DNA of 34,330 bases from Eubacteriales Family XIII. Incertae Sedis bacterium (lineage in GTDB: Bacteria; Bacillota; Clostridia; Peptostreptococcales; Anaerovoracaceae). The position numbers and the translations under genes are program-made. The stretch lies in the NCBI GenBank assembly GCA_031266515.1, contig JAISAW010000102.1:1-34330 (forward strand). The letters are read 5' to 3'. Below, in pieces: positions 8,544 to 25,055 of this stretch. Every line of letters starts with the position of its first letter. Within the stretch, counting starts at the first letter, position 1. The notes beneath the pieces are model-generated. The model did no database searches. It saw only the letters and a list, made by a program, of their open reading frames with translations, and had not been told where the DNA came from.

Positions 8544-9680
8544 ATGTTAAAAAATTTAATTAGGATCCTGCTTACTTTCATAGGATTCTGGCTCGGATTC
8601 GGCCTTTTCGAATTCGTGAGGCTGCTCTCTCGAAAGACTGAGCTTTTTACTCTCCCGGATTTTTCGAACGTTGAGCTGAATGTACTGAGAATTGTATTCG
8701 GACTTATCTTCGCAATATTATTATTTTTATTTACTCCGGCGTTGACGAGACAGAGTTCCAGAATAGCCAAAGGGATCGAAAAAGAATTAAAACAGGTATC
8801 CGCGCATTACCTGATGGGAGGTATCGCGGGGGTCATAATAGCGTTGCTTGCAGCCTTCCTGATAAGCCCTGTAATGGGCAATATACAAAACCCCACTCTC
8901 GGGGCGGTGCTCTCTTTCATGCTTTACGCGATATTGATATGGGTAGGCTTTGTCGTAGGCACGAGGCGCATCAGCACGATATTCGCGGGCATGGTGGACA
9001 CCCGCATGAAGCTTGCGGACCGCGCGGAACGCCCGCAAAGCCCCCCTCCGCAGGGAGGCAAGAGGGCGGCACCGAAGATACTCGACACAAGCGTGATCAT
9101 AGATGGACGCGTGGCGGATATCCTCAAAACCGGGTTCGTCGAAGGCAAGATAGTCATTCCCGACTTCGTGCTTGTGGAGCTGCGCCATATCGCGGACTCG
9201 TCGGACGCACTCAAGCGCAACAGGGGCCGGCGCGGCCTTGACATCCTGAACAGGATACAGGAGGAGTTTGGCATTGAGATCCTGAACACGTCAAACGACA
9301 AAGGGCTGAAGGAAATCCCCGAGGTAGATGTCAAACTTCTGAAACTCGCGAAAAACATGAAAGGCGCCGTCGTGACCAATGACTTCAATTTGAACAAGGT
9401 CGCAAAGATACAGGGCGTCGGGGTCCTGAATATCAACGAGCTTGCGAATACCCTCAAGCCCGTGGTGCTGCCTGGCGAAGAGATGACCCTCTTCCTCGTG
9501 AAGGAAGGCAAGGAGCAGGGACAGGCTGTCGCTTACCTGGATGACGGGACCATGATAGTCGTAGAGGACGGCAAGCCGGAAATAGGAAAAGAAACGAGGG
9601 TCTCCGTGACAAGCGTCCTTCAGACTTCAGCCGGCCGCATGATATTTGCCAGGCTCAAACCTCATCATGCACGGAGATAA
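8544..9680 (+). CDS. Membrane PIN-TRAM domain protein (YacL-like)
   Basis: 378 residues. About four hydrophobic segments lie within the first 150 residues, followed by a PIN nuclease-fold domain starting near residue 180 (ILDTSVIIDGR, with a conserved acidic residue) and continuing through FVLVELRHIAD and VVTNDFNL. A TRAM RNA-binding domain spans about 315-375. The closest well-known relative is Bacillus YacL, whose substrate is not established; the PIN fold suggests an RNase. The best Shine-Dalgarno match, AAGGAGG at 8517-8523, is about 20 bases before ATG 8544, unusually far. No other in-frame start lies nearer, so initiation may be weak or depend on folding. It sits 25 bases after carD and its end overlaps ispDF. 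Confidence 0.9.
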   Translation: MLKNLIRILLTFIGFWLGFGLFEFVRLLSRKTELFTLPDFSNVELNVLRIVFGLIFAILLFLFTPALTRQSSRIAKGIEKELKQVSAHYLMGGIAGVIIALLAAFLISPVMGNIQNPTLGAVLSFMLYAILIWVGFVVGTRRISTIFAGMVDTRMKLADRAERPQSPPPQGGKRAAPKILDTSVIIDGRVADILKTGFVEGKIVIPDFVLVELRHIADSSDALKRNRGRRGLDILNRIQEEFGIEILNTSNDKGLKEIPEVDVKLLKLAKNMKGAVVTNDFNLNKVAKIQGVGVLNINELANTLKPVVLPGEEMTLFLVKEGKEQGQAVAYLDDGTMIVVEDGKPEIGKETRVSVTSVLQTSAGRMIFARLKPHHARR

Positions 9681-10998
9681 ACGCGTAACGGCCATCATAG
9701 CCGCAGGCGGGACAGGATCCCGGTTTGGCGCAGGCCAGCCCAAGCAATACCTGAAGGTTGGGCAGGTCAGCATCCTCGGGCGCTCACTTTCCGCATTTTT
9801 GGATGGCCGTGTGACAGATGCCGCAGTCATAGCCGTCCCTGAAGGGCTGGTCGGGTTTTCGGCGGACGTACTCCTTGAGGATTTTGGCGACGCATTTGTG
9901 GCCGGGCAAAAAAATGCCGGGCGAAAAGCGGGAGAAGCTGCGGAAACCATCCTTTCCGCCAAATGTTTGTACCTGGCTGCGGAGGATATGGCAAAGCCTG
10001 TGCTGATAGTCCCGGGCGGCAGCGACCGCACCGCTTCGGTGAAGGCCGCTTTAGACGCCCTGCGGGATGAAAAGGCTTTCCTCGCGGCGGGTGGCTCTTC
10101 CCCGTCTGACGGCTATGTGCTGATACACGACGCGGCGAGGCCGTACGTGAGCGAAGAGCTTATAAACAGCGTGGCTGACGCGGCGAGCATGTACGGTGCC
10201 GCAGTACCCTGCGTGGCTTTGAGGGATACCGTGTACAGAGCCTCCGAAGAAGGCTTTCCCGCATCGGTAGATGAGCTGTGCGACAGGAAAAGGCTTGCGG
10301 CTGCCCAGACGCCTCAGGGTTTCGCTTTCAGTGTCATAAGCGAGGCGCTGGACAGAGGGGCGGCGGAAGGCAAGGGTTTCACAGACGAAGGGTCTGCAGT
10401 GATCGAGTACGGAGGCCTCGTCAAGCTCGTTGAAGGCGACAGCGCAAATACCAAGATAACTACGGCCGATGATCTGGCGCATTCGGGCGGGGAGTACAGG
10501 GCTGGCATCGGGTTTGACGCCCATGCGTTCGGCCCCGCTGGTCTCGCCGATGCAGCCGATGTAAGTGAAGGCTTGATCCTCGGAGGGGTCGAGATCCCTT
10601 TCGAAAGACGGTTGGTAGGGCATTCCGATGCGGACGTACTGGCCCACGCCCTGATGGACGCCATCCTGGGCGCTGTGTCAAGGGGGGACATCGGATTGGT
10701 TTTCCCGGATACGGACGACCGTTACCTCGGCGCGTCGAGCATGGGCTTGCTGGACAAAACGCTCTTAATAATGAAGGAAGAGGGCTATTCCCTGGTAAAC
10801 GCGGATTTGACGCTTGTCGCGGAAAAACCCCGGCTCGCCCCTTATCGGCGTGAAATTATCGAAAAATTGGCCGCGGCGCTGGATGTCGACCCGAAAGCGG
10901 TGTCGATAAAAGCGACCACCACTGAAAAGCTTGGCTTTACAGGGCGGGAAGAAGGCATAGGCGCGCAGGCGGTCGTCATGCTCAGGAAAAGCAGATGA
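9667..10998 (+). CDS. ispDF: Bifunctional IspD-IspF (MEP pathway)
   Basis: A fusion of two non-consecutive enzymes of the methylerythritol phosphate route to isoprenoids: 2-C-methylerythritol 4-phosphate cytidylyltransferase (IspD, about residues 1-255) and 2-C-methylerythritol 2,4-cyclodiphosphate synthase (IspF, about 277-443). IspD shows the nucleotide-binding AAGGTGSRFG and the PKQYL motif. IspF shows the metal-binding GFDAH and HSDAD motifs and a C-terminal KATTTEKLGFTGR segment. The frame is open from 9646, but ATG 9667 is preferred; it overlaps the yacL-like stop by 14 bases and has only a weak ribosome-binding site, so coupling is likely. The IspD part carries short insertions relative to compact homologues, near residues 80-105 and around 140. 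Confidence 0.93.
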   Translation: MHGDKRVTAIIAAGGTGSRFGAGQPKQYLKVGQVSILGRSLSAFLDGRVTDAAVIAVPEGLVGFSADVLLEDFGDAFVAGQKNAGRKAGEAAETILSAKCLYLAAEDMAKPVLIVPGGSDRTASVKAALDALRDEKAFLAAGGSSPSDGYVLIHDAARPYVSEELINSVADAASMYGAAVPCVALRDTVYRASEEGFPASVDELCDRKRLAAAQTPQGFAFSVISEALDRGAAEGKGFTDEGSAVIEYGGLVKLVEGDSANTKITTADDLAHSGGEYRAGIGFDAHAFGPAGLADAADVSEGLILGGVEIPFERRLVGHSDADVLAHALMDAILGAVSRGDIGLVFPDTDDRYLGASSMGLLDKTLLIMKEEGYSLVNADLTLVAEKPRLAPYRREIIEKLAAALDVDPKAVSIKATTTEKLGFTGREEGIGAQAVVMLRKSR

Positions 10999-16695: not shown

Positions 16696-16896
16696 GCGGA
16701 CTTAGGGACTGTTTGGAAATAACCTTTACATCTTGCTTGCCTTTTAATCACTACGAAAACCTACGAAAAGATTTTAGGACAAAAATGGCAGATTTATGTT
16801 TATTCATGAAGAAAAGAGAGTAAAATAGCCATATGGTGAAATAAAGCTTGAAGCAAAATGATAACCGCGAAACCTTGAGGGACAGGGAGAGGGCGC
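16696..16896. other. Intergenic region with short repeats upstream of the giant gene
   Basis: This stretch has no gene. It holds AGGGACTGT plus 11 more bases (16704-16723) resembling 29023-29042, and ACCTACGAAAAGATTT (16759-16774) identical to 25822-25837. TTTAATCACT (16743-16752) also recurs at 25835-25844. A poor promoter-like TAAAAT lies at 16821-16826. GGGAGAGGG just before 16897 is the ribosome-binding site of the giant gene. Confidence 0.5.
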
Positions 16897-19800
16897 ATGA
16901 AGGCTGCATATAAGTCACGGGGACAGGGGAAACCCAACCATATAAGTATTTTGACGGCTTTGGCTGTGGCCTTGTCCATGGTGCTGATGCCCGTGATGTC
17001 CGCAGGGGATACCGACGGCAGTGTAGTGCCGCCCGCGGAGTTGACGGAACCTGTTGATACGCTGGCGACGGAGCCTGCAGGCCTGGCGCCGACAGAAGAG
17101 CTTTCCGATTTGCCCCCCCCCGTTCAGATAGAGGATGGGCAGGCTGGGGAACCTTCGCCTGATACAGATGGCTCTGCGGGAAACCCCGCAGTGAGTGAGG
17201 CGGCTGACACAGACACATCCGAAACCCCGCCGAAACCCGTGCCTGCCGGGGAAAGCGTGAAGGGTACGTCCGGATCTACACTGCCTGTGATAGCCCGGCT
17301 CAGCCTGGCGTCAATCAAGCCGATGTCGGACACTCCCGTCCCCATCACTGAAGGCCAGAGTGTCAGTACTATCCAAACCAACATCCAAAATGCGCTGAAC
17401 AGCGCGGGCAGCGGCGATACAGTCACCGTCACCGGCAGCAAGACCGGCGTGACTACCACGCTCAGGCTGGATATCCCGGCGGGCGTCAAGGTTCTCTGGA
17501 AAGCCAGGTACACAGGCACTGTAGGCGCCGCAGAGGCTCTGATTACGGCCTATGGCTATGTAGGAAACGCTTTTGAAGTGGGCGATGGCGAAGTCAGCAC
17601 AACTGAAGGCAGTGCCATCTACTACACCGCCGGACTGGTTTCCACTATCACTGTCAGCGGCGGCGTAGTAAGCGCCACGACAGGCAGTGCAATCTACACC
17701 ACCGGGATAGATTCCTCTGTCACGGTCAGCGGCGGCACGGTCAGCGCCACGACAGGTACGGCCATCTACGACGCCGGAGCAATTTCCCCTGTCATTGTCA
17801 GCGACGGCACGGTCAGCGCCACGACAGGCAGTGCAATCTACACCACCGGGATAGATTCCTCTGTCACGGTCAGCGGCGGCACGGTGTCAAATACGGCCAC
17901 GGCGCCATCATCCCCTGTCATCTATATGGGCAATGCCGGCAACACCGGCCGGAATGTCACCGTGTCCGGCACCGGCACGGTAAAGGCGATGGGGGCTGGC
18001 GGCACTGCCATACAGTCGCCCGGAGAGGTAGCAGTCACCGGCTTCGGCACGGTAAGCGCCACGACAGGAATTGCCATAGAGGGCACCGGGACAGGCTCCA
18101 AAGCCACGGTCAGCGGCGGCACGGTGTCAAATGCGGCCACGGCGCCATCATCCCCTGTCATCTATATGGGCAATGCCGGCAACACCGGCCAGAATGTCAC
18201 CGTGTCCGACATCGGCACGGTAAAGGCGATGGGGGACAGCGGCATAGCTATACAATCGCCCGGCAATGTGTCAGTCAGCGGCGGCGTAGTGAGCGCCACG
18301 ACAGGCATAGCTATACAATCGCCCGGCAATGTATCAGTCACCGGCGGCACGGTGAGCGCCACGACAGGCATCGCCATCAATGCTACCGGCAATGTGTCAA
18401 TCGAAAGAGGTTCCGTGCGCGCCACGGCAGGCATCGCCATCAATGCCGCAGACCCGTCCTGTACCGTCACCGTCAATGCGGGACGGGTAGAGGCGACGGG
18501 AGGCATGGGCATGGCTGTAGCCATACAGACAGCCGGCAATGTCAGAGTCAACGGCGGCGAGGTCAGCTCAGAAGAATATGCAGCCATACTATCTACCGGG
18601 GACCAATCCGTTGTCACTGTCACCGGAGGGAAAGTCTCCTCTCTGGGATATGGTATCTGTATGCAAAACCAGTCCAATACAGGCCTGAATGTCACGGTGG
18701 GCGGAACTGGACAGGTAGAGGCGGAATCCGCTTCTACTATCTTGACTTACGGGGATGTAACTATTGGGGGCCAGCCTCCAGCCATTGACCGCGCCAGAGT
18801 CAGCGCCAAATCGAGCTGTGCAATTGATGCAAGAGGCCGTACCTCCGCCGTTACGGTAAGTGGCGGCCTTGTAAGCGCAGAAGGCGGCCATGCCATTGAA
18901 GCCTTAGGCGAGGCGGCTAGAGTCACCGTCAACGGTGGCCTTGTGTTTGCCTATGGCAACCTTATAAACGGCAATCCAGGCACGGCGGTCTATATAGAAA
19001 ATGCTGACGGGTTTGCCGGCCCGACCGCTTTGGGCGGCATGGTCATATCGTGGAGCGATTGGACTTGGCATTGGCAACCCGGGGACAGTACCTATCTATA
19101 CGGCACAAAGGCCGGCATCGACATTCTGCCCACCACCTCCGCTACGGCAGTGTGGGATGAGCGGGATGGCCTGAGCGGCATCGCTTATAAGGGCCTTGCC
19201 AATGAGGGCTTTATCCCGATAGCGGGTGTGGCGCTGAGGTCCGAAGCTGCTGTGGGCGATGTGACTGTCAGCGGCAAAGTCGGCGCGCCGCTTGCGGATT
19301 CGCAGACGGCGACCATCAAGCTCGTCGGCGATACGGTGAAGGATTCGTTTACGGGCAAAGATGTCTCTGATTGGTTTTACAATGATTGGAACCCCAACAC
19401 CCTGCCCACGGGCGTGACTGTTGCCGCTACAGCACAGAAGGGCAGCGACAGTATCAAGCTCACATTTGGCGGCGTGCCTGCGAGGACGTGGTGGATGTGG
19501 GACGACATCAAAGAACGCTTGGATATCACTATCCCCGGAAGCGTCCTCGCCCACGGCGAGGATGTCCCCGTGACGCCAAACGACAACGCGTTGTTTGATA
19601 TCGCCCTGGAGCCTTATGCCTTGACGGCCGTAAACGGCAGGCCTGTCAACGGCCAGGACGCCTCTCCGCCGGGGAGCAATATGTATCTGCCGGGGACAGG
19701 GGTTGACATCATGGCGGACGTCCTGGATTGGCTGGAGTTTGTCGAATGGGTGGGCAGCGGCGGCGTTAGTTTCAATTATGGCGCCGGCAGCCCATCTAAC

Positions 19801-22800
19801 TCATTCGAAATGCCGGCCAACGATGCCACTGTCACGGCGAGGTACCGGTATGAAAGGCCATACTACATAGAGGTCAACTACTTTGACGAAACGCTTACGG
19901 GGTTCATGCCGGGAAGCTACTCGTTTCGCAGGCCTTGGAGCGGGGAACCGGCTATAACAGTTACGGTATCGGGAACGGCCTTCCCAATCGAGGAAGGGTG
20001 GATGGACTGGTACTATCTTTCCATCGTAAGGGAAGGCGAGGGGGATATCGGCGGCAGTGAGGCCTTTGAAGATATTTTTATCCCCGAGCGGCCCCCCGCC
20101 CCCGAGCATATAGAGGGCGAAAATGAAACAGTCGCCGGCCTGTCCGACGGCCGGATCACCGGCGTGGACGGATCTATGGAGTATAGCCCGGATGGCGGGG
20201 CCAGCTGGAAGTCCTGCACTGGCAATTCTGTCGAAAACCTTGCGCCCGGCAGCTATCAGGTGCGGTACGCAGCTGCGCAGGGCTCGTTCCGAGGCCTTCC
20301 TGCCACGATAGAGGTCGGGCAGGGGGCGCCGCAGACATATGCCCTGAAAGTGGAAGCGCCCTCGTTTGCCGATGTGACGGCAGGCTACGTGCAGCCCGAT
20401 GCAAAGGCCATCACGATCACGAACACCGGGAACAGCCCGGCGACGATAGAAAGCGTCACCGTATCGGGGGAAGCTTTTGTGATAAGCGGCTCCGGCGGGA
20501 CGGTCGCCCCGGACGGCGGAAAGACCGAGACATGGAAGGTCCAGCCGGAAGCCGGATTGGGCGTGGGCAGGCATAATGCTGTCATCACCGTGGGCTACGA
20601 TGATGGCGGCACCACTGCGTCTGTCGTGGCAGGCGTCACGTTCACGGTAAACGCACAGACAAACGCCTTGACGGTCGTGCACGGCTCGGGCGGCGGCGGG
20701 GCATATGCGGAAGGGGACAAGACAGGCATCACTGCGGACAGCGCCCCTGAAGGGCAGGCATTTGACAGGTGGGTCAGCGATGGCGGCGGGGCCTTCGCGC
20801 CCGGCCACACCTCATCCTCGGCTGTATTCACCATGCCTGCAGGCGCGGCCACTGTCACCGCGAAATACAGGTATGCCACCCCCAGCGTATACATCAGCTT
20901 TATCGGGGAGGTATTGACGGGGTTCACGCCGGGGAGGTATTCGTTCAATGGCGGGACGCCTGTCCTGGTCCCTGGGGCCACCCATGTGGTCGAGGAAGGG
21001 TGGATGGACGGCTCGCCGCTCTCAATAGTGAGGGAAGGCGAGGGGGATGTCGCGGACAGTGCTCCGCAAGAACTCCTTGTCCCCGCGCGGCCTGCCGCCC
21101 CCATCAGCATAGGAAAGACAGATGAAACGGTCACAGGCCTGCATGACGGCACGATTACGGGCGTGGGCACGGATATGGAGTACAAGGCGGATGGCGGGGC
21201 CACATGGACGGCCGGCACAGGCTCGGCTGTCACAGGGCTTGCGCCCGGCGTGTACCAGGTGCGCTACAGGGCCGCCGTCTCCGCATTCTACGGCCAGCCA
21301 GCCACTATAACGGTCAGGGAAGGCGAAGCGCAGGCCCGCGAGCTCCAGGTGGCGGCGCCGTCATTTGGCGCGGCAACGGAAGGCTACGGCAGCCCGCCCG
21401 CTGCGGAGCCCATCATCATCACGAACAACGGGAACAGCCTGGCGTCGATAGGAAGCGTCACGGTATCGGGGGAGGCTTTTGAGGTCAGCGGCTCCGGCCC
21501 TGCGGTCCAGCCTGAAGGGGGTACGATAGATACATGGAAGATCCGGCCGAAAGCCAAGCTTGGCGTGGGCACATACACGGCGACTGTCACTGTCGCCTAT
21601 GACGGGGGCGCGCAGGCAACCGCAAATGTGGGCTTTACGGTGAATGCGCGGAAGTACGCATTCACAGTGGCAAACGGCACGGACACGGCGGGCGAGGGCC
21701 CGTATGCGGCGGGGGCTGCCGTGAAGATAAGGGCGGGCGTGGCCCCGCCAGGGCAGGTGTTCAACGTTTGGGAGAGCAGCGGCGGGGGCACTTTCCTGCC
21801 TGATACAAGCATCTCCACCACTTTCATCATGCCGGATGGCGACGTCACGGTCACGGCGAAGTACAGGTATGCCACGCCTGAAGCAGATATAGATTTCAGA
21901 AGCGAAACCTTGACGGGCCTTGTGTCCGGAGGGACGTATTCGTTTAATGGCGCAGGGCCTGTCGTCGTTTCGGAGGCGGCCTATGCGCTTGCCGAAGGAT
22001 GGATGGCGGGCTTGCCGCTCTCCGTCGTAAGGAAAGGCGAGGGACATGTCGCCGACAGCGCTGCGCAGACCATCCCTGAAATCCCGGCGCGGCCTGCCGC
22101 CCCGGACAGCGTAGGAAAGACAGATGAGACTATCGCCGGCCTGGCTGACGGCCGGATCGCCGGCGTGGACGGATCTATGGAGTATAGCCCGGATGGCGGG
22201 GCCAGCTGGAAGTCCTGCACTGGCACTTCTGTTGACGGCCTTGCGCCCGGCAAATACCAGGTGCGCTACGCAGCTACGGGCTTCTCGTTCCACAGCCTTG
22301 CCGCCACGATAACGGTCGGGCCAGGGGTGCCGCAGACATATGCCCTGAAAGTGGAAGCGCCATCATTTGCCGATGTGACGGCAGGCTACGTGCAGCCCGA
22401 TGCAAAGGCCATCACGATCACGAACAATGGGAACAGCCCGGCGACGATAGAAAGCGTCACCGTATCGGGGGAAGCTTTTGTGATAAGCGGCTCCGGCGGG
22501 ACGGTCGCCCCGGACGGCGGAAAGGCCGAGACATGGAAGGTCCAGCCGGAAGCCGGGCTGGGCGTGGGCAGGCATAATGCTGTCATCACCGTGGGCTACG
22601 ATGATGGCGGCGCCACTGCCTATGTCGTGGCAGGCGTCACGTTCACGGTAAATGCACAGACATATGCCTTGACGGTCGTGCGCGGCTCGGGCGGCGGCGG
22701 GAGCCATGCAGAAGGGGACAAGACAGGCATCACGGCGGACAGCGCCCCTGAAGGGCAGATATTCTACAGGTGGGTGAGCGATGGCGGCGGGGCCTTCGCG

Positions 22801-24192
22801 CCCGGCGACACTTCATCCTCGGCTGTATTCACCATGCCTGCGGGCGCGACCACCGTCACTGCGAAGTACCGGTATGCCACGCCAGACGCAGAGGCCGGCT
22901 TCACGGATGAGACCCTGACGGGGCTTGTGCCGGGAGGGGTGTATTCGTTTAATGGCGGGGCGCCTGCCGTCGTTTCGGGGGCGGCCTACGCCATCCCTGA
23001 AGAATGGATGGACGGCTCGCCGCTCTCAATAGTGAGAAAAGGCGAGGGGGATGTCGCCGACAGTGCAGCGCAGGCCATCCCTGAAATCCCGGCGCGGCCT
23101 GCCGCCCCCATCAGCATAGGGAAGACAGACGAAACGGCCGAAGGCTTAAATGACGGCACCATCATCGGTGTAGACACAGATATGGAGTACAAGGCGGAAG
23201 GCGGGGCCATATGGACGGCCTGCCCCGGCCCGGCCGTCACAGGCCTTGCGCCCGGCATGTACCAGGTGCGCTACAGGGCCACGGCCTCATCATTCCACAG
23301 CCATCCAGCCACGGCGACGATTGGCAAAGGGGCGGAACGGACGTATGCCCTCACAGTCGTAAACGGCACGGACAAGACGGGCGGCAGCCCGTATACGGCT
23401 GGCACTATAGTTGACATCGTTGCGGACGGCGCCCCGGCGGGCAAGGTGTTCGACAAGTGGGCGGGCGGCGCCGGCGGGGCTTTCGGCGATGAAAGCAGCC
23501 CATCGACCACATTCGCCATGCCTTCGAATGCGGCGACGGCCACTGCGACATATAAAGATATCGAAGAAAATGAAGAAAAAGGCGTCAAGCCCGTCGAGAA
23601 AGACTTCGGGGCATATACGGGCAGCGGGGACGTCACGGCGAAAGTGGACGCGGACTATACTACGTTTGTACGCCTGCTGCTTGAGGGCGAGGAAGTGGAT
23701 GCCGAAAACTATACGGTCACACAGGGGAGCACGGCCATCACGCTTAAGGAGGGCTACCTGAAGACGTTTGGCGACGGGACGTATCTGTTCGTCGCTGAGT
23801 TTTCGGATGGCGTAAGCGGGAATATAAAGCTGTCCATAGGCCAGGCGGGCGACGGCAAATACCCTGGCGACGGCCCTCCAGGGCAAGACACAGATAAGCC
23901 AGGGGGCAGCGCAGGCAATAGTACGGGCACATCATCCAGTGGCTGGCCAATCGGAGGCGCCGCAACAACAGCAAGCGTCGATCAGCCCGCAGCAGGCGAG
24001 GCCACCACAGGTAGCACATCGGATCAAGATGAGGCAAAGGCAGGCAGTGGGGCGGCTGAGGCCGCTGTTGGCGACAGCACAGCAGGCAAAGGCATTTCCC
24101 CTCTCGCCTTATGGCTCGCTGTCATCGCCGCGCTCGGGGCGGCCCTCATCGTGGTTATAAGCATGAACGCTCGCAGGAAGAAGGCGCAATAG
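16897..24192 (+). CDS. Giant repeat-rich surface protein (adhesin-like), 2431 residues
   Basis: A signal peptide spans about residues 1-36 (hydrophobic core, then a probable cut after MSA), followed by a Pro/Glu/Thr/Asp-rich stretch to about 140. Residues about 150-700 are short VTVSGGTVSATTG-type repeats expected to form a right-handed beta-helix. From about 905 to 2220 there are five InlB B-repeat-like modules (pattern A-L-T-V-x-N-G ... F-x-x-W ... T-x-F-x-M-P ... V-T-A-x-Y). These alternate with beta-sandwich-like segments and three ASPM/SPD-2/Hydin-like modules. Residues about 2228-2320 resemble an X2-like Ig module. A Gly/Ser/Thr/Ala linker leads to a membrane segment at about 2401-2423 and a basic tail (RRKKAQ). 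No LPxTG-type sortase signal is visible, so membrane anchoring is inferred. Function is probably adhesion or surface structure; the ligand is unknown. The ribosome-binding site is good. Confidence 0.9.
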   Translation: MKAAYKSRGQGKPNHISILTALAVALSMVLMPVMSAGDTDGSVVPPAELTEPVDTLATEPAGLAPTEELSDLPPPVQIEDGQAGEPSPDTDGSAGNPAVSEAADTDTSETPPKPVPAGESVKGTSGSTLPVIARLSLASIKPMSDTPVPITEGQSVSTIQTNIQNALNSAGSGDTVTVTGSKTGVTTTLRLDIPAGVKVLWKARYTGTVGAAEALITAYGYVGNAFEVGDGEVSTTEGSAIYYTAGLVSTITVSGGVVSATTGSAIYTTGIDSSVTVSGGTVSATTGTAIYDAGAISPVIVSDGTVSATTGSAIYTTGIDSSVTVSGGTVSNTATAPSSPVIYMGNAGNTGRNVTVSGTGTVKAMGAGGTAIQSPGEVAVTGFGTVSATTGIAIEGTGTGSKATVSGGTVSNAATAPSSPVIYMGNAGNTGQNVTVSDIGTVKAMGDSGIAIQSPGNVSVSGGVVSATTGIAIQSPGNVSVTGGTVSATTGIAINATGNVSIERGSVRATAGIAINAADPSCTVTVNAGRVEATGGMGMAVAIQTAGNVRVNGGEVSSEEYAAILSTGDQSVVTVTGGKVSSLGYGICMQNQSNTGLNVTVGGTGQVEAESASTILTYGDVTIGGQPPAIDRARVSAKSSCAIDARGRTSAVTVSGGLVSAEGGHAIEALGEAARVTVNGGLVFAYGNLINGNPGTAVYIENADGFAGPTALGGMVISWSDWTWHWQPGDSTYLYGTKAGIDILPTTSATAVWDERDGLSGIAYKGLANEGFIPIAGVALRSEAAVGDVTVSGKVGAPLADSQTATIKLVGDTVKDSFTGKDVSDWFYNDWNPNTLPTGVTVAATAQKGSDSIKLTFGGVPARTWWMWDDIKERLDITIPGSVLAHGEDVPVTPNDNALFDIALEPYALTAVNGRPVNGQDASPPGSNMYLPGTGVDIMADVLDWLEFVEWVGSGGVSFNYGAGSPSNSFEMPANDATVTARYRYERPYYIEVNYFDETLTGFMPGSYSFRRPWSGEPAITVTVSGTAFPIEEGWMDWYYLSIVREGEGDIGGSEAFEDIFIPERPPAPEHIEGENETVAGLSDGRITGVDGSMEYSPDGGASWKSCTGNSVENLAPGSYQVRYAAAQGSFRGLPATIEVGQGAPQTYALKVEAPSFADVTAGYVQPDAKAITITNTGNSPATIESVTVSGEAFVISGSGGTVAPDGGKTETWKVQPEAGLGVGRHNAVITVGYDDGGTTASVVAGVTFTVNAQTNALTVVHGSGGGGAYAEGDKTGITADSAPEGQAFDRWVSDGGGAFAPGHTSSSAVFTMPAGAATVTAKYRYATPSVYISFIGEVLTGFTPGRYSFNGGTPVLVPGATHVVEEGWMDGSPLSIVREGEGDVADSAPQELLVPARPAAPISIGKTDETVTGLHDGTITGVGTDMEYKADGGATWTAGTGSAVTGLAPGVYQVRYRAAVSAFYGQPATITVREGEAQARELQVAAPSFGAATEGYGSPPAAEPIIITNNGNSLASIGSVTVSGEAFEVSGSGPAVQPEGGTIDTWKIRPKAKLGVGTYTATVTVAYDGGAQATANVGFTVNARKYAFTVANGTDTAGEGPYAAGAAVKIRAGVAPPGQVFNVWESSGGGTFLPDTSISTTFIMPDGDVTVTAKYRYATPEADIDFRSETLTGLVSGGTYSFNGAGPVVVSEAAYALAEGWMAGLPLSVVRKGEGHVADSAAQTIPEIPARPAAPDSVGKTDETIAGLADGRIAGVDGSMEYSPDGGASWKSCTGTSVDGLAPGKYQVRYAATGFSFHSLAATITVGPGVPQTYALKVEAPSFADVTAGYVQPDAKAITITNNGNSPATIESVTVSGEAFVISGSGGTVAPDGGKAETWKVQPEAGLGVGRHNAVITVGYDDGGATAYVVAGVTFTVNAQTYALTVVRGSGGGGSHAEGDKTGITADSAPEGQIFYRWVSDGGGAFAPGDTSSSAVFTMPAGATTVTAKYRYATPDAEAGFTDETLTGLVPGGVYSFNGGAPAVVSGAAYAIPEEWMDGSPLSIVRKGEGDVADSAAQAIPEIPARPAAPISIGKTDETAEGLNDGTIIGVDTDMEYKAEGGAIWTACPGPAVTGLAPGMYQVRYRATASSFHSHPATATIGKGAERTYALTVVNGTDKTGGSPYTAGTIVDIVADGAPAGKVFDKWAGGAGGAFGDESSPSTTFAMPSNAATATATYKDIEENEEKGVKPVEKDFGAYTGSGDVTAKVDADYTTFVRLLLEGEEVDAENYTVTQGSTAITLKEGYLKTFGDGTYLFVAEFSDGVSGNIKLSIGQAGDGKYPGDGPPGQDTDKPGGSAGNSTGTSSSGWPIGGAATTASVDQPAAGEATTGSTSDQDEAKAGSGAAEAAVGDSTAGKGISPLALWLAVIAALGAALIVVISMNARRKKAQ
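17640..18380 (+). repeat. DNA-level repeats encoding beta-helix coils
   Basis: Near-identical coding repeats are visible as DNA. The block beginning GTGCAATCTACACCACCGG at 17687 recurs at an offset of 144 bases. A longer block starting at 17881 (ACGGTGTCAAAT) recurs at 18121, exactly 240 bases later, and stays nearly identical for over 100 bases. The shorter unit GCGCCACGACAGG recurs many times. All offsets are multiples of three, so copy-number change would keep the frame. Confidence 0.8.
19612..23555 (+). repeat. About 1-kb tandem cassettes in the giant gene
   Basis: The protein pattern P-A-R-P-A-A-P ... G-L-x-D-G-x-I recurs near 20085, 21081, 22088 and 23095, a spacing of 996-1007 bases. 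Cassettes 1 and 3 match each other much better than their neighbours and stay aligned at a constant offset of 2,001 bases from about 20120 to 20880. Over about 360 bases (20332-20690) I count roughly 15 differences by eye. Cassettes 2 and 4 also resemble each other. The last cassette lacks the Hydin-like module. Confidence 0.85.
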
Positions 24193-24245
24193 CCGTCGGC
24201 GTTTCCCGGTTTCCCGACGTTCAGGTACGAAGAAGAGTACTTAGC

Positions 24246-24280: not shown

Positions 24281-24649
24281 ATGATAAATGTTATTGAAAA
24301 CGCTAATATTTTTACAGATGCTGAGATAGAGGCTATTATGGAAGAGGTCGTCAAGGCTGCGGAAGCTGAGCTTGGCGACAGGCTTTCTGATGTCATATTG
24401 TATGGCTCATACGCGAGAGGCGACAACAGAGAGTGGTCAGATATAGATGTGATGGTTCTCGTTGAAACGGACGACTTTGAAGCAAACTATATCAAGAATA
24501 TTTTGATGGACAGGCTTTGGCGCTTGATCTATGAAACGAATCTACTTCTGTCCATCATCGTCGTCAGTGCTTCACGGTATGAACAATACAAGGATATTCT
24601 TCCGTTCTACACAAATGTGGCGAGAGAAGGCCGGCGCGTCTATGCCTGA
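24281..24649 (+). CDS. MNT-family minimal nucleotidyltransferase
   Basis: 122 residues of the DNA polymerase beta-like nucleotidyltransferase fold. The signature GS-x10-D-x-D is exact: Gly42-Ser43, then Asp54 and Asp56. The third acidic residue of the catalytic set is not evident in the strand around LLLSIIVVS. Such proteins are usually encoded beside HEPN proteins, and in the MntA-HepT toxin-antitoxin system the nucleotidyltransferase is the antitoxin that AMPylates the HEPN toxin. Here the HEPN gene overlaps the 3' end by 8 bases. Translation must start at ATG 24281, as no other start or ribosome-binding site is available, and the promoter predicts a leaderless mRNA. The toxin-antitoxin role is an inference from family and context. 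Confidence 0.87.
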   Translation: MINVIENANIFTDAEIEAIMEEVVKAAEAELGDRLSDVILYGSYARGDNREWSDIDVMVLVETDDFEANYIKNILMDRLWRLIYETNLLLSIIVVSASRYEQYKDILPFYTNVAREGRRVYA

Positions 24650-25055
24650 ATACAAAGAAGAGCAATCCATTCTGGCCATGCTGCGCATTGAGAATGCAAA
24701 AGAAGATTGCGAGTCGGCGGCGCTTGAGTTCGGTCAAGCTCATTATAAAGCGGCAAACAACAGGGCATACTACAGCATATTCCACGCGATCCGCGCCGTT
24801 CTCGCGCTCGAAAGCAAAGACTTCAAATCGCATGGGCAGTTGCTGGGATACTTCAATAAGAACTATATTCATAAAGGCAAATTCGATATATCGCTTTCAA
24901 AAATAATCAGCAATGCGAATGGTCTTCGTACAGACAGCGATTACAATGATTTTTTCATCGCTACGGCTGAAGAGTCTGAAAATGCGCTGGAGGGCGCGAG
25001 GACATTTCTCGACGCCGTCACGGTTTATCTTGCGAATGAATTGAACGGGCTATAA
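24642..25055 (+). CDS. HEPN-domain protein (probable partner of the MNT protein)
   Basis: 137 residues from ATG 24642; the frame is open upstream to 24531, but that part lies inside the MNT gene. The HEPN R-x4-6-H motif is present as Arg41-x6-His48 in NRAYYSIFHAIRAVL, in a helical background. HEPN proteins are often metal-independent RNases and toxins. The motif form fits the general HEPN family (HI0074-like) rather than the HepT subfamily, whose R-x4-H-x-Y with the modified Tyr near the C-terminus is not seen. GAGAAGG lies about 11 bases before the start. Overlap with the MNT gene implies joint translation. Whether it is toxic or an RNase is not shown by the sequence. Confidence 0.85.
   Translation: MPEYKEEQSILAMLRIENAKEDCESAALEFGQAHYKAANNRAYYSIFHAIRAVLALESKDFKSHGQLLGYFNKNYIHKGKFDISLSKIISNANGLRTDSDYNDFFIATAEESENALEGARTFLDAVTVYLANELNGL

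Follow-up and report, generated by a model that had tools for sequence, protein, structure and literature searches.

Mosaic cassettes in a giant gene of a Family XIII bacterium point to gene conversion within a domain array

Here, we describe a repeat-rich giant gene in which two non-adjacent stretches of the domain array are 91.7% identical over 747 ungapped bases, while adjoining domains of the same array follow conflicting histories. We moderately favour the explanation that ectopic gene conversion placed a tract of three domains (Y-H-I) onto an older array, over that of a single recent duplication. The gene lies in the window, i.e., the whole 34,330-nucleotide stretch of DNA that was analysed, which is an entire contig (C110) of a 1.79 Mb genome in 147 contigs with 81.6% completeness.

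The giant gene (16897-24192, plus strand) is an open frame of 2,431 codons without internal stop, and its translation (2431 aa) suggests a secreted, membrane-anchored surface protein. From the N-terminus, this protein comprises a hydrophobic signal, a beta-helix region, the domain array, a CBM_X2-like domain (23617-23823; Pfam PF03442, E 6e-4, under its cut-off) and a C-terminal membrane segment with a basic RRKK tail (24085-24192); no LPXTG was seen in the translation. The N-terminal region is predicted with good confidence to be a right-handed beta-helix. In an AlphaFold2 model of 17344-19614, most blocks as far as residue 530 or so have a pLDDT of 70-95, and the nearest solved folds are beta-helix proteins, every match being weak; together with DNA repeats, these place the region at approximately 17407-18978. 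The repeats, located in 17605-18400, are 63, 72 and 240 bases long and share up to 71 identical bases (17671/17815). Judged by this architecture, the protein is probably an adhesin composed of a beta-helical head and a stalk, and may work like a fibrillar adhesin. Just downstream (24281-25055), overlapping genes for a nucleotidyltransferase-domain and a HEPN-domain protein were found, as in MNT/HEPN toxin-antitoxin pairs.

Pfam detects HYDIN-type Ig domains (H) and five InlB B-repeat-like stretches (I) in the protein. The latter reach 106.1 bits (E 9e-31) for PF18998 (Flg_new_2, InlB B-repeat) and exceed the gathering cut-off of 23.6 bits, so that the protein qualifies as an InlB B-repeat protein. 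Between I and H lie two more repeated domains, X and Y, with the family of X1 and Y1 left unassigned. According to profiles built from the window, complemented by alignments, the array reads I1-X1-Y1-H1, I2-X2-Y2-H2, I3-X3-Y3-H3, I4-X4-Y4, I5, that is, three times I-X-Y-H followed by I-X-Y-I, all on the plus strand. Cassette 1 consists of I1 (19615-19860), X1 (19861-20103), which is the most divergent X, Y1 (20104-20337) and H1 (20338-20661), a HYDIN/choice-of-anchor-D Ig-like domain (Pfam PF22544; NCBIfam choice_anch_D under cut-off). It is followed by I2 (20662-20883), X2 (20884-21102), Y2 (21103-21336) and H2 (21337-21654), the last being about 68-69% identical to H1 and to H3. Cassette 3 comprises I3 (21655-21879), X3 (21880-22104), Y3 (22105-22338) and H3 (22339-22662), which is 96.6% identical to H1. 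In cassette 4, I4 (22663-22884; 89% identical to I2) precedes X4 (22885-23109) and Y4 (23110-23343), which carries no H domain after it, and the array closes with the terminal I5 (23344-23556). A structure model of the cassettes was poor (pLDDT 60), and its cadherin-like and HYDIN-like fold matches faintly hint at an Ig-like nature of the domains; no solved structures related by sequence to the array were found.

The matching block extends over 20134-20880 (Y1-H1-I2) and 22135-22881 (Y3-H3-I4), at a constant offset of +2,001 with no gaps and 62 differences in 747 bases. This bears out the original prediction, which had described a match of cassettes 1 and 3 at this offset for about 760 bases; over the span it had given, 20120-20880, 67 of 761 bases differ. 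With an identity of 0.917, 2,001 is unique among the ungapped offsets of the whole window, the next best reaching 0.48 and the mean being 0.26 +/- 0.02. The rate of about 15 differences per 360 bases, estimated by eye, holds in the best part of the block (14 differences in 20338-20697, 96% identity) and is too low at its start, where 30 differences occur in 360 bases (20152-20511). As had also been proposed, the cassette in between has diverged much further: it is only about 48% identical at fixed register and, once aligned, 47-89% identical per 45-base window, mostly 60-70%. The cassettes of that earlier reading cut across the domain units. The block links the last domains of one cassette with the first domain of the following one, beginning about 30 bases inside Y, spanning the cassette borders and ending abruptly at the I/X junction.

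Identity at the 2-kb offset changes in steps, from 0.56 before 20134 to about 0.92 up to 20847-20877, where it drops to about 0.63-0.79. Past the block, at offsets of 2,001-2,007, it amounts to 79% up to 21303 and to 0.60 thereafter, and BLAST returns a weaker, extended pairing of approximately 20017-21305 with 22018-23312 (84.7% over 1,301 columns). Change-points fall at 20133/20134 and 20847-20877, the BIC decreasing from 1771 for one segment to 1621 for three (a gain of about 150), and finer models add a dip to 76% at 20224-20328. A GENECONV-like permutation test of cassettes 1 and 3 yields p < 0.001 with 20326-20839 as the best segment; this test and the change-point scan were picked with the block already known, and all of the tests for one duplication were run at that stage, on four units only. 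Such a sharply bounded high-identity tract between non-adjacent repeats is one mark of a gene-conversion mosaic.

The other mark, conflicting histories of adjoining segments, was found as well. In a sliding quartet analysis, I pairs cassettes 1 with 3 and 2 with 4 (bootstrap 1.0), X and the 5' end of Y pair 1 with 2 and 3 with 4 (0.95), and the rest of Y returns to 1 with 3 and 2 with 4 (1.0). The A-B-A'-B' pattern put forward earlier is therefore true for Y, H and I, and untrue for X. The turning point lies within Y3, a mosaic whose first 30 bases or so are Y4/Y2-like and whose remainder is Y1-like. Over the 60 bases preceding the 5' edge, cassette 3 shares 83% identity with cassette 4 and 57% with cassette 1; over the 90 bases that follow the edge, the values are 69% and 97%, respectively. 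In addition, X1 and X2 share a form one codon shorter, which X3, X4 and a paralogue from the same genome do not have. The likeness of cassettes 2 and 4, another part of the original prediction, exists in a weak form (X 73.7%, Y 78.3% identical). Y2 and Y4 are mutually closest, with a bootstrap of 0.95 for 2-4 being closer than 3-4, whereas X of cassette 4 is nearer to that of cassette 3 (77.2%).

Silent divergence is likewise unequal. Inside the block (the A part) dS is 0.154, versus 0.489 for X2-Y2 against X4-Y4 (the B part; permutation p 0.002); the corresponding bootstrap intervals, obtained on closely similar column sets, are 0.105-0.216 and 0.342-0.701. An equal divergence among all cassettes, named beforehand as an outcome that would speak against the pattern, was thus not seen in either the offset scan or the substitution analysis. 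A dS of about 0.15 exceeds the expectation for within-species variation, and for this reason it is doubtful that the copying was recent, as first supposed.

From these observations, we infer conversion, as opposed to duplication followed by other exchanges. The ancestor would have been a single I-X-Y-H-I unit from which the array grew, and the single I-X-Y-H(-I) unit of the nearest relatives of other genera counts in favour of this scheme. In the older array, cassettes 3 and 4 would have been alike in sequence as well as adjacent in place. Roughly 750 bases, covering most of Y, the whole of H, and I, would then have been copied from the 1/2 position onto the 3/4 position by intragenic homologous recombination across 2,001 bases, leaving X on either side unchanged, probably in one conversion-like event with small changes afterwards. 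Parsimony suggests this direction of transfer: the 3/4 copy is the likelier recipient because both of its flanks group with the neighbouring cassettes and have thus kept the local type. Divergence inside the block is uneven, with dN/dS pairs of 0.017/0.088 in H and 0.066/0.286 in I and the above-mentioned 76% dip, which suggests that more than one exchange is likely to have taken place there.

A donor outside the gene was also sought. No close DNA match to the block occurs elsewhere in the genome, nor in phages, and plasmids and phages gave weak protein matches only; from an assembly that is 82% complete, a donor may be missing.

Some observations count against conversion. Y2 and Y4 form the closest pair, as a two-cassette duplication predicts, and the 79% similarity at offsets of 2,001-2,007 runs on beyond the block. 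A unit of 2,001 bases, Y-H-I-X-Y-H-I-X, might therefore have been tandemly duplicated by unequal crossing-over, the H of the last cassette being lost and the match in X and Y being eroded later by small exchanges or diversifying selection. The constant offset over 747 bases and the pairing of I2 with I4 are in agreement with such a history, and domain repeats usually grow by multi-domain expansion (PMC1553488). Nevertheless, every domain should then pair at distance two and silent divergence should be equal across the unit. Instead, X pairs at distance one, the one-codon-shorter form is common to X1 and X2, dS differs threefold between the halves of the supposed unit, and no counterpart of H2 follows Y4. 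Since the segments are not equally old and X is not paired at distance two, a single two-cassette copy does not fit, and the sharp edges within the array speak against duplication alone as well. A two-cassette duplication is possible if exchanges in X followed it; overall, we regard the duplication scheme as a serious but rather unlikely alternative. Of the two options offered by the original prediction, gene conversion is the better reading in view of how sharply the block is bounded, of the disagreement between domain histories and of the unequal silent divergence. It also accommodates the likeness of Y2 and Y4 with no need for a unit duplication, since the original Y3, before its replacement, would have been of the 2/4 type.

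A short-read assembler that mixed repeat reads or reads of two strains could create a false pattern or copy number. The window is indeed a contig of a fragmented genome, and related metagenome bins have contig names in k119_, in MEGAHIT style. Against this, exact repeats within the gene reach 96 bases at most and no 97-mer recurs, so that typical assembly k-mers span it; moreover, the 62 differences between the copies are scattered, the frame stays open over 2,431 codons, and a chimera is not expected to yield a mosaic that agrees with the domain-level history. We therefore consider an assembly or binning artefact, which had been named as a possible source of the pattern, improbable. The copy number of four cassettes, as read from an assembly contig, is provisional. 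It is very improbable, in our judgement, that Y-H-I modules are moved blockwise between X "sockets" by a continuing programmed or selected reshuffling which makes the stalk switchable between cells; if it were so, the surface stalk would differ among cells within one population. Finally, strong shared selection on Y-H-I instead of recombination, to which dN below dS in H and I might point, hardly deserves credence and is rejected as the sole source of likeness on silent sites, which are also near-identical in the block (dS 0 across its first 25 codons and 0.088 in H, exact runs of 96, 66 and 61 bases), while H2 at the corresponding position has a dS of about 0.75 to both H1 and H3.

The nearest proteins of like domain arrangement were found in the Clostridiales Family XIII metagenome bins Gx485_bin216 and Gx485_bin78 (L081, L082, L084), Family XIII corresponding to Anaerovoracaceae. 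Genomes that gave matches fall within the family of the window, which makes this family its probable origin. In the scan of named genomes, an alignment of the cassettes and relatives as query found relatives, whereas a single query made of the entire array gave no match. The proteins of the two bins show the same domain order, I-X-Y-H(-I), with one cassette each instead of three and a half, and are about 44-48% identical to the giant protein; the paralogue from the genome of the giant gene, on contig C95, holds a single I-X-Y. Because these relatives carry so few units, the growth of the array from one cassette to three and a half is probably lineage-specific. In a wider set of loci, I or X-Y arrays are common and have internal DNA identities of 66 to 98%; genes of this kind generally undergo repeat turnover. 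In Paenibacillus lycopersici (L089), a 1925-aa open frame contains a related X-Y-X-Y-I array; its internal repeat of 431 bases, 98.4% identical at an offset of 450 bases, looks like a younger case of such copying within an array.

Pieces of the giant gene and of its surroundings recur in the same genome. A copy of its 3' end including the stop codon (window 24013-24196; 184 bases, 95% identical) lies with sharp edges directly after an aminotransferase-like gene on contig C60 (7078-7261; L003:1494-1677), and is either an exchange tract or what remains of a deleted paralogue. Contig C10 (approximately 9557-9772; L005:1440-1655) holds a collapsed copy with two internal deletions: about 100 leader bases (like 16795-16895) are followed by 83 CBM_X2 bases (like 23617-23699) and then by sequence resembling the final 36 bases of the gene. 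BLAST matched the 83-base piece and 34 bases of the leader, and the remainder was read by eye. The short sequence at 16700-16745 recurs on at least five other contigs (C29, C134, C46, C35, C65), on C35 in both orientations, and is possibly a dispersed palindromic element or a terminator.

In domain repeats, expansion commonly takes in more than one domain per step (Bjorklund et al. 2006, PMC1553488). The giant gene resembles such proteins in that its top similarity is internal, between units two apart, and in its mid-array expansion, and it departs from a clean unit duplication in that the pattern breaks at X. A second comparison concerns Periscope Proteins, i.e., length-variable stalk proteins such as SasG, Rib and Sgo_0707 (Whelan et al. 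2021, PMC8201768). Secretion, an N-terminal folded head (here a confidently predicted beta-helix, a candidate for the ligand-binding part), a beta-rich array, a C-terminal anchor (here a membrane segment, with LPXTG not seen) and intragenic recombination are features that the giant protein probably shares with these and with fibrillar adhesins. Periscope Proteins, however, have tandem, highly identical folded domains, whereas the giant gene has multi-domain cassettes and its adjacent units are mostly 60-70% alike; because of this divergence, we do not file it among them. In giant surface genes of Apilactobacillus kunkeei, which encode very large extracellular proteins, diversification occurs mostly by short intragenic recombination (PMC12863079); there, exchange takes place between strains and no recent paralogue conversion was seen, while here it would take place between repeats of one gene. 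In this company, the giant gene is one more instance, ordinary in kind, of concerted evolution in surface proteins rich in repeats and leaves the general understanding unchanged. It adds a probable lineage-specific cassette expansion in an uncultured Clostridia family and cautions that an A-B-A'-B' appearance alone is no proof of unit duplication. Its value lies in a clear, well-bounded case in which repeats of one bacterial surface-protein gene appear to have exchanged sequence across domain borders.
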